From: Crocinitomicaceae bacterium
GTDB taxonomy: Bacteria > Bacteroidota > Bacteroidia > Flavobacteriales_D > Crocinitomicaceae
Direction of reading: 5' to 3'
Assembly (NCBI GenBank): GCA_018402525.1
Contig: JAGYIR010000011.1
Span: 558,001-622,000, forward strand
Length of the DNA stretch: 64,000 nt
This document shows, one piece after another, positions 36,220 through 38,264 of the stretch. The translations under genes and the position numbers were made by a program. The notes under the pieces were generated by a model. It was not told the origin of the DNA and made no database searches. It saw only the letters and a program-made list of their open reading frames with translations. The stretch's first letter is position 1; every line of letters starts with the position of its first letter.

Positions 36220-36385
36220 TTTTTTATTGTTTGATCTAAATTAGTATAATTCCGTGTCGATGACGAAATTAATCAAATTGTAAGAAAAAAGACCTATTTT
36301 GGGTGTTTTTTTAAAGGAAGAAATTAAATTAAAAACCGGAAAGGCAACTTTTAATTTATCGAAGCGTCTAACGAACGAAACTAAT

Positions 36386-36955
36386 GTGGAAAACAAAGAA
36401 CATTTAGAGCAAATAATACGCGGGTGCCTCGACAACAATAGAAGGTCGCAGGAAACCCTATTTAAGCTTTATTATGGTAAAATGCTTTCTGTGTGTATGC
36501 GCTACTCAACGGATAGAGATTCGGCTGAAGAGGTTTTACAAGAAGGTTTCATAAAGATCTTTGATAAACTTGATGCGTTTGATTACAAAGGGTCCTTTGA
36601 AGGATGGATGCGACGAATTATGGCAAATACCGCCATTGATAGTATCCGAAAATCGAAGAAAGATCCTTTTCTCACAGACAACGATGAAGACTTTAAATTG
36701 GGTGCTGTTGATCCAATGGTCGATTCGGAAGAATTGGAACTGGTGGGACTCAAAGCTGAAATTGCCATGGAAGCGATCAATGAGCTTTCTCCTGCCTACA
36801 AATCTGTTTTCAGCTTGTATGTTTTCGAGGAGTACAAGCACAAAGAAATTGCAGAAATACTTGGCATCAGTGAGGGAACGTCAAAATCAAATTTAGCAAA
36901 GGCAAAATTGAATTTGCAAAAAATATTAAAAGAAAAATTCATGAACATTGATTGA
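36386..36955 (+). CDS. ECF-type RNA polymerase sigma factor
   Basis: With a GTG start at 36386 the protein is 189 residues; a TTG at 36299 would add 29 and cannot be excluded. Region 2 (QETLFKLYYGKMLSVCMRYS then AEEVLQEGFIKIFDKLDAFD and GSFEGWMRRIMANTAIDSIR) and region 4 (LSPAYKSVFSLYVFEEYKHK, then EIAEILGISEGTSKSNLAKA) are complete. It has no anti-sigma of the FecR type beside it; instead a membrane protein with a gliding-motility-type tail follows one base after its TGA. Target promoters are unknown. Confidence 0.9.
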   Translation: MENKEHLEQIIRGCLDNNRRSQETLFKLYYGKMLSVCMRYSTDRDSAEEVLQEGFIKIFDKLDAFDYKGSFEGWMRRIMANTAIDSIRKSKKDPFLTDNDEDFKLGAVDPMVDSEELELVGLKAEIAMEAINELSPAYKSVFSLYVFEEYKHKEIAEILGISEGTSKSNLAKAKLNLQKILKEKFMNID

Positions 36956-36956
36956 C

Positions 36957-38264
36957 ATGAAAGATACATTTGAAAAGAACATAAAACAAAGCTTAGAAAA
37001 CCATGAGATGCCCTACAATGCATCTGCGTGGAATGCTATGCAAGCAAAACTGGATGTAGTGAAACCTGTTTCATCACTGCCAGGATCTGGTTTGAAATGG
37101 TTCATTGGAGCTGCTTCTGTTGTGGTGATTGGTGTAGTGAGTTACTTCGCGGTAACATCAACCAATTCCAATCCTGAAAACACTGCTGTAAATGCAGTTG
37201 TAAGTGAAAACCAAACGGATGACGCTACAACGACTACTTCTGAAGTAAAAGAAAATCTTACTAAAAACACAACGCAAACAACAGTTGAAAATGATGCTGT
37301 TGAAACTGTTGAGGCGGTAAACACACCAAAACCAAGCAATCCAGCATCTAAAAATGAGATCAATCCATTCAGTTCAAATGGATCTATTGGAGGGAATGGT
37401 GAAGGGAATGGAACTTATTTTGGTGCCGGTAACGAAAACACTGGGACTGGTGAAGGAAAGTCAAACACAATAAGATCCTCCAATGAATCAAATACAACAA
37501 CTAAAAACGTTGTGCTTCCACAAATAAACGATTTATGCGAAGGTGAAGTCGTAACGGTGGAAAATACAAACGATGCACCATTACTTATTTCTGGACCTGA
37601 GTTGTACTTTACCATTCCTGCCAACGCAACGAGGAAAGTCCGTGTGAATGCTGAAGGCCTACACACTGTTGCATTGTTGAGCAATAAAGAAGCGCAAAGT
37701 ACTTTCTTCGTGAATAAAGCGCCTTTTGTTGATTTCACAATTGATTCGGATACAAAATTTGAGGCTGGACTTCCAACAACAAAATTAGAAACTATGGTTT
37801 CAGGAAGTGAATTTAATTGGATCATTGGAAGCAGACGTATCACTGACAGAAAAGTAAATGCGCACTTATTTAAAGCTGGAGATCACGATGTGACGTTAAC
37901 TGTAAAAGGATTGAATGGATGCTCAAACAGCTTGACGAAAACAATTCACATTGATGAAAAATACAACTTGATGGCGGTAAATTCATTTGTCCCACAAGAC
38001 AGTGATCCACGAAACAATACCTTCATGCCATTTGCGTTGACGCAGCGAGACGTGAAATTCACCATGATTATTATTGATCCAACCGATGGACACATTGTTT
38101 ACCAAACGAACAATGCCAGCAACGGATGGGATGGAACTGACAAAACCACAGGACAGCAGGTCAACTATGAGATTTCATACATTTGGAAGGTCGTAATTGA
38201 AAATGCGGAGCCAGGAGAAGATAACGAATATGCGGGTAACATTACCCCGATTCGCCGAAGGTAG
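36957..38264 (+). CDS. Membrane protein: cytoplasmic anti-sigma-like N-terminus, T9SS-type-B-like C-terminus
   Basis: I start at ATG 36957; 435 residues. Residues 1-45 (MKDTFEKNIKQSLENHEMPY, then SAWNAMQAKL) look like a cytoplasmic anti-sigma helix pair, a single helix at about 48-67 crosses the membrane, and a Thr/Asn/Glu-rich low-complexity linker (70-190) leads to PKD-like strands (235-335) and a C-terminal gliding-motility/CHU_C-like region (NNTFMPFALTQRDVKFTMII ... GWDGTDKTTGQQV ... SYIWKVVIE). It is cotranscribed with the sigma factor, one base apart. The fusion suggests a transmembrane sensor tied to the sigma factor; mechanism is inference. Confidence 0.78.
   Translation: MKDTFEKNIKQSLENHEMPYNASAWNAMQAKLDVVKPVSSLPGSGLKWFIGAASVVVIGVVSYFAVTSTNSNPENTAVNAVVSENQTDDATTTTSEVKENLTKNTTQTTVENDAVETVEAVNTPKPSNPASKNEINPFSSNGSIGGNGEGNGTYFGAGNENTGTGEGKSNTIRSSNESNTTTKNVVLPQINDLCEGEVVTVENTNDAPLLISGPELYFTIPANATRKVRVNAEGLHTVALLSNKEAQSTFFVNKAPFVDFTIDSDTKFEAGLPTTKLETMVSGSEFNWIIGSRRITDRKVNAHLFKAGDHDVTLTVKGLNGCSNSLTKTIHIDEKYNLMAVNSFVPQDSDPRNNTFMPFALTQRDVKFTMIIIDPTDGHIVYQTNNASNGWDGTDKTTGQQVNYEISYIWKVVIENAEPGEDNEYAGNITPIRRR

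Follow-up and report, generated by a model that had tools for sequence, protein, structure and literature searches.

To our knowledge, it is an open question how Bacteroidota adjust the synthesis of large surface proteins to what the type IX secretion system (T9SS) can export. The locus described here lies in a window of 64,000 nucleotides (the whole stretch of DNA analysed) from a Crocinitomicaceae bacterium, and it encodes, next to an ECF sigma factor, a membrane-anchored protein that ends like a T9SS cargo protein. The first-pass annotation of the window had proposed that this protein senses the state of the secretion machinery and releases the sigma factor, an interpretation that our analysis partly supports.

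Organization of the locus

The features of the locus are listed below in window coordinates.

36343-36368, + strand: predicted autoregulatory ECF promoter, GGCAAC-N16-CGTC, ending 17 bases ahead of the GTG start (conserved element)
36386-36955, + strand: ECF sigma gene, GTG start at 36386, TGA stop at 36955, 189 aa (Pfam regions 2 and 4, TIGR02937)
36957-38264, + strand: partner gene, anti-sigma-like membrane protein with a T9SS type-B tail, ATG start at 36957, TAG stop at 38264, 435 aa (profile searches and model)
36957-37055, + strand: partner residues 1-33, two helices (4-14 and 22-33), proposed sigma-binding domain (model and alignment; binding inferred)
37098-37157, + strand: residues 48-67, single membrane helix (model, family hydropathy)
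37161-37496, + strand: residues 69-180, disordered tether (model, family tether length)
37497-37952, + strand: residues 181-332, two PKD/Ig-like domains (model, family profile against solved PKD domains)
37959-38261, + strand: residues 335-435, diverged T9SS type-B (CHU_C) tail (TIGR04131, 14.6 bits; cargo HMM, 35.1 bits)

The product of the first gene has sigma-70 regions 2 and 4 without other regions, which characterizes an ECF sigma factor (PF04542, 57.2 bits, E = 1.4e-15; PF08281, 58.5 bits, E = 5.1e-16, both above the cut-off; TIGR02937, E = 8.3e-29). A single base separates its stop codon from the ATG of the partner gene, in agreement with the gene arrangement given by the first-pass annotation.

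The structure of the partner was predicted with AlphaFold2 from a 46-row alignment (mean pLDDT 78.3, pTM 0.60). As had been anticipated, the model consists of short cytoplasmic helices, one membrane helix and a long outer part. Residues 69-102 and 110-177 have a pLDDT below 50. Beta structure begins at about residue 181, with block means of pLDDT from 88 to 98, and the model ends with a less ordered stretch followed by four strands (368-373, 380-384, 408-414 and 424-431). Within the family, the distance from the membrane helix to the conserved Cys194 ranges from 107 to 145 residues (32 sequences) or from 83 to 126 residues (46 sequences). The family also has a conserved cytoplasmic part of 45 residues, duplicated in some members, and Trp25 is invariant across 39 aligned N-termini. 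The 12 residues ahead of the membrane helix carry a positive net charge (median +2 in both family alignments), which fits an N-terminus-in topology.

The hydrophobic helix starts at residue 48 and is therefore not a normal signal peptide, confirming the internal anchor noted at first reading. Type-B cargo such as SprB, with its PorP/SprF shuttles, has PKD-like domains and a homologous C-terminal tail in common with the partner (PMC12618676; PMC9143113). T9SS cargo, however, has an N-terminal Sec signal peptide, whereas the anchor of the partner (residues 48-67) follows a cytoplasmic domain that is predicted to be folded. The family profile matches solved PKD domains, the best being that of collagenase ColH (E = 8.1e-25). 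A fold search of the PDB returned the GhpA neck of Aureispira as its best hit (TM 0.26), plus PKD domains, and no match identifying the tail.

The C-terminal tail

The tail of this copy scores 14.8 bits against Pfam CHU_C (PF13585; E = 0.031), below the gathering cut-off of 27, and 14.6 bits against TIGR04131, for which the cut-off is 35. It is the lowest of 34 TIGR04131 matches in the genome, 31 of which exceed the cut-off. An HMM built from 29 cargo tails of the same genome matches it with 35.1 bits, and the profile of the anti-sigma tails aligns with that of the cargo tails at E = 6.4e-29 (99.8% probability), or at E = 3.9e-16 when the comparison is restricted to the first 17 rows (nearer relatives). 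Both the HMM match and the profile alignment indicate that the tail is a real type-B homologue despite its low scores. On this evidence we regard it as homologous to T9SS type-B cargo tails, as the first-pass annotation had supposed. That annotation had made its proposal depend on a T9SS-sorting fold in the C-terminal region, and the proposal withstood this test, run here as the profile comparison. According to PMC12618676, there is no solved structure of a type-B tail for comparison.

In other lineages, the orthologous tails of G002 (40.3 bits) and L248 (49.4 bits) lie above the TIGR04131 cut-off, and that of L268 (27 bits) lies under it. In alignment A1, several distant members retain the canonical N-F-x-P-N-G-D start of the tail, from which the genus of this bacterium has drifted away. 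The tail of the present copy, having drifted below the model cut-off, may thus no longer be a working export signal. One could also suppose that the tail is merely a borrowed beta-sandwich sensing another envelope cue, with surface-protein genes belonging to an envelope regulon and the T9SS never handling the tail. The drift in the genus would suit this explanation, as would the commonness of PKD domains among extracellular proteins. The orthologous tails that stay above the curated cut-off argue against it.

Conservation of the pair and exchange of the outer modules

The sigma gene lies directly upstream of the partner gene in 29 of the 30 best loci of the order; the remaining one is truncated at a contig end. 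Of 20 loci selected in other lineages, 19 have the same arrangement. The pairing is therefore more than chance. Of 299 genomes of the order, 236 have the N-terminal domain of the partner and 279 have GldM; both are too common for a test of co-occurrence or co-loss with the T9SS to be informative. A search of the phylum, in which the best four candidates per genome were scored, matched at least 232 of 395 genomes, and among the matches listed, those aligning from the N-terminus were limited to members of the order. Given this sampling, the absence of the N-terminal domain outside the order is weak evidence.

When named genomes were searched with the alignment of the sigma, at least 591 relatives were detected. 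Among the best 80 of these, 78 had a downstream frame: a type-B tail of at least 10 bits is encoded in 52 of these frames (in 48 the score is 20 bits or higher), 24 lack one and 2 are truncated at a contig end. Pairs of an ECF sigma with an anchored, CHU_C-tailed protein, for which the first-pass annotation had advised a search, are thus common.

A Pfam scan covered 8 of the 24 partners without a type-B tail. A beta-barrel was found above the cut-off in three (L266, L283 and L284) and below it in two (L271 and L276), L264 has PKD domains only, and L252 has no match above a cut-off. In L251, a PorP/SprF domain (PF11751, 77.6 bits, E = 1.5e-21; TIGR03519, 83.6 bits, just under the cut-off of 90.55) follows four N-terminal motif repeats, counted by eye. 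No outer domain is present in the anti-sigmas of L252 and L256, which are followed by a PorP/SprF gene at distances of 336 and 492 bases, respectively. PorP/SprF is the T9SS shuttle family that binds type-B tails (PMC9143113; PMC12618676). The two members of a single T9SS recognition pair are therefore both present, either on these anti-sigmas or next to them.

These exchanges bear on two of the explanations. The generic barrels of L266, L283 and L284 would be expected if the outer part were a sensor of some other envelope cue, and the PorP/SprF domain or neighbour in L251, L252 and L256 would not. The partner could, on the other hand, be no anti-sigma at all and simply a T9SS cargo whose signal anchor is not cleaved and whose co-transcription with the sigma is fortuitous. 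Its outer part is indeed of cargo type, and searches of Pfam and NCBIfam gave no anti-sigma match above a cut-off. The recurrent position of the sigma gene argues against this idea, as do the conserved and sometimes duplicated cytoplasmic part of 45 residues and its retention in relatives with quite different outer domains. We judge it the least probable of the explanations considered.

Some of the loci call for separate remarks. Downstream of the pair of L268 are a small exported protein and then a larger one, an arrangement resembling the predicted target operons found elsewhere. Records titled Kuenenia, Polynucleobacter, Chryseobacterium, Glaciecola or Chitinophaga (L220, L224, L227, L231 and L235) contain pairs near those of Crocinitomicaceae, and these titles may be wrong.

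Predicted promoter of the pair

Of 29 upstream regions from the order, 28 contain the element GGCAAC-N16-CGTC with its spacing unchanged; the 29th revealed it once the region was widened. It is also present at 18 of the 20 loci from other lineages. Among the named loci (best 80 of at least 591 relatives), it precedes 39 of the 52 pairs with a type-B tail vs. 5 of the 24 others. The latter five are the PorP/SprF-linked L251, L252 and L256, plus L224, which appears to end inside the tail, and L275, which has only a 95-residue frame. This predicted promoter of the sigma, maintained across the order, is newly described here, as are the similar sites ahead of type-B cargo genes reported below.

Predicted targets in this genome

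Scanning for the exact motif, or for the motif with one mismatch, was rejected as a way to find targets by itself: 2 sites were obtained vs. 14 with the reversed control, and 56 vs. 95. One of the 2 sites falls in eukaryote-like DNA, and 30 of the 56 were inspected. Since such scans reveal no targets by themselves, we used a matrix scan over gene starts. The matrix, built from 28 sites of other genomes, was applied to positions -160 to +60 of 697 genes (frames of at least 80 aa) in 40 stretches and the 64-kb window. The proportion of CHU_C genes in this set (32 of 697) reflects the choice of 28 stretches round such genes.

The site of the sigma gene itself ranked first (24.6 bits). Excluding the two genes of the pair, 13 genes reached at least 10 bits, and 6 of them are CHU_C genes (hypergeometric P = 6.6e-6); in the N-terminally hydrophobic subset, the proportion is 4 of 7 (P = 8.5e-4). 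Three more of the 13 genes lead into a CHU_C frame, directly (C6:387612-388086) or via frames with an apparent break (C1:43150-45124 and C5:31062-31461), and the remaining 4 have no such link. The enrichment depends on the spacing: N16 gives 6 CHU_C genes in the top 13 where 0.58 are expected, and twelve other spacings give 0 to 4 (4 with N17 and N22). None of 200 column-shuffled matrices reached 6, the largest count being 4. The shift over all CHU_C genes is modest (Mann-Whitney P = 0.003), and in the stretches scanned, 25 of 32 CHU_C genes stay below 4 bits. Most cargo genes therefore lack a site and only some would be controlled.

Three regions of this genome deserve comment. The reading frame appears broken in two large type-B cargo genes (G000:C1:41174-45124 and C5:23980-31052); the breaks are either real or assembly errors. 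The same 997-residue type-B cargo gene was found with equal scores at G000:C6:141605-144596 and G000:C15:57916-60907, either because the assembly is duplicated or because the gene is. The eukaryote-like DNA of L039 (G000:C6 near 101049) includes a frame for a flap endonuclease (XPG_I, 100 bits) with intron-like interruptions, and it is a contaminant or part of a chimeric contig.

Predicted targets in four other genomes

In genomes G266, G106, G002 and G044, we found 117 sites of the form GCAAC-N16-CGTY, of which the 3 at sigma genes were dropped. The 114 remaining sites were compared with 149 CHU_C frames among the matches listed, leaving out the anti-sigma of G002. Ten sites lie within -400 to +150 of the start of one of these frames (5 in G106, 3 in G002, 2 in G266 and none of the 51 sites of G044). 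Against the same listed frames, 0.31 sites are expected from random placement (largest count 4 in 2001 trials), the strand-flip control gives none, and a narrower interval contains 7 sites vs. 0.19 expected. Total site numbers do not exceed those of the reversed-pattern control (11, 25, 29 and 52 vs. 11, 46, 39 and 111 in the four genomes). The sequence was inspected at 23 of 30 loci, namely those outside G044. These include 7 of the 10 CHU_C sites, each ending 10-32 bases ahead of an ATG.

At 3 of these 7 sites, the large protein is preceded by a small exported one of 95-120 aa. L203 and L212 display the same succession of a small and a large exported protein without a CHU_C frame among the matches listed. 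Under predicted promoters, we observed a small exported protein ahead of a large one at C5:31062-31461, C6:387612-388086, L186, L195, L210, L203 and L212; these small proteins span 95-158 aa, and those of L195, L210 and L212 look alike by eye.

The presence of type-B cargo among the predicted targets is a further argument against an outer part that senses some unrelated envelope cue, and overall we hold that explanation to be unlikely.

T9SS machinery genes

SigP is an ECF sigma that governs T9SS genes in Porphyromonas gingivalis (PMC7712824), and in Flavobacterium psychrophilum, promoters with a CGT box are found ahead of gldN, porU and a pair of ECF sigma and anti-sigma genes (PMC9723704). 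By analogy, the present sigma could act like SigP on the T9SS machinery itself, under a control of the PorXY-SigP kind. The upstream regions of gldN and porU, the two machinery genes considered, do not agree with this: they score -5.7 and -5.8 bits with the sigma matrix in this genome, and only two loose matches to the element (L060 and L081) were found among 23 gldN and 15 porU frames of the genus. On the basis of these two genes, a regulon of machinery genes was rejected, and such a role for the sigma appears highly improbable. The link between the T9SS and gene expression suggested by the first-pass annotation is thus supported for a subset of cargo genes, the predicted targets, and not for these two machinery genes.

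The porU upstream regions of the genus (L070, L074, L076 and others) share a conserved CGTTTTTT box, and L060, a second gldN copy, has GGTAAC-N15-CGTT. Both elements resemble promoters of another ECF sigma.

Proposed mechanism and relation to known systems

The reading that we prefer, with a probability of roughly 0.6, is that the partner is a variant of the Dma-type anti-sigmas and couples the transcription of some type-B cargo to T9SS export. The architecture, the conservation of the pair, its promoter and the bias of its sites towards cargo genes are read from sequence; from them we infer that the partner binds the sigma and releases it, that T9SS parts recognise the tail and that the protein acts as a sensor, as well as the direction of the response. 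An autoregulated ECF sigma would be held at the inner membrane by the anti-sigma, whose periplasmic part would present, on a flexible tether, a PKD-PKD-CHU_C structure built like a type-B cargo tail. The sigma would transcribe its own operon and some type-B cargo operons, coding for large exported proteins, sometimes with a small exported protein first. T9SS parts, either the translocon or a PorP/SprF shuttle, would engage the tail as cargo, and since the anti-sigma is anchored in the membrane, this cargo could not leave. The engagement would alter or cleave the anti-sigma and free the sigma, so that cargo would be made when export capacity is free. We favour this sign because the predicted targets are cargo genes while gldN and porU have no site; the response may instead have the opposite sign. 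That the predicted targets encode tagged proteins suggests that cells match cargo production to export.

In flagella, FlgM is the anti-sigma of FliA (sigma-28); it bears an export signal, controls late export substrates, is soluble and leaves the cell. The partner likewise would be an anti-sigma with the export signal of a secretion machine. It differs from FlgM in being anchored and in its unrelated machine, so release of the sigma would need pulling or proteolysis. A T9SS checkpoint of this type, with the anti-sigma as a tethered decoy cargo, is a more tentative proposal, to which we give somewhat less than even odds. The type-B tail, or the PorP/SprF receptor in another lineage, would then read free export capacity or free cargo and set the transcription of type-B surface proteins.

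Among T9SS systems, the closest precedent is PorA, which acts upstream of PorXY-SigP in P. gingivalis (PMC7712824). PorA likewise has a T9SS C-terminal domain and influences an ECF sigma and the expression of T9SS genes; it does so from the cell surface, via a two-component system and with machinery genes as targets. The tail studied here, unlike PorA, sits on the sigma's own membrane-anchored partner, and the predicted targets are cargo genes.

Dma anti-sigmas (PMC13088901) have an N-terminal anti-sigma part, one membrane helix, a long disordered tether, a large outer part and an adjacent ECF sigma, a plan that the partner follows with a putative anti-sigma part. The model of the partner predicts the single helix and the tether, and in the place of the N-terminal sigma-binding domain is a conserved, predicted helical N-terminus with the invariant Trp25. 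The sigma of Dma systems is of the ECF21 class; the partner adjoins an ECF sigma, and close relatives pair with barrel-tailed partners. The C-terminal outer-membrane beta-barrel of Dma is absent from the partner, which has PKD/Ig-like domains and the CHU_C-like tail instead, and the predicted targets, type-B cargo genes, also differ from those of Dma. The partner may work like Dma, though it lacks the barrel. No description of a type-B-tailed anti-sigma was recognised in the literature searched, outside of which are most subscription papers and all bioRxiv preprints.

If the preferred reading is true, export status would be directly coupled to cargo transcription by a system widespread in one order, the T9SS counterpart of what FlgM gives flagella. 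The presence of a cargo tail on an anchored regulator would be explained, and the Dma class would be widened to anti-sigmas whose envelope modules are interchangeable, be it a barrel, a type-B tail or PorP/SprF.

Finally, the N-terminal Trp motif is repeated two to four times in the anti-sigmas of L012, L016, L028, L102 and L251. Such repeats might let one anti-sigma hold several sigma molecules.
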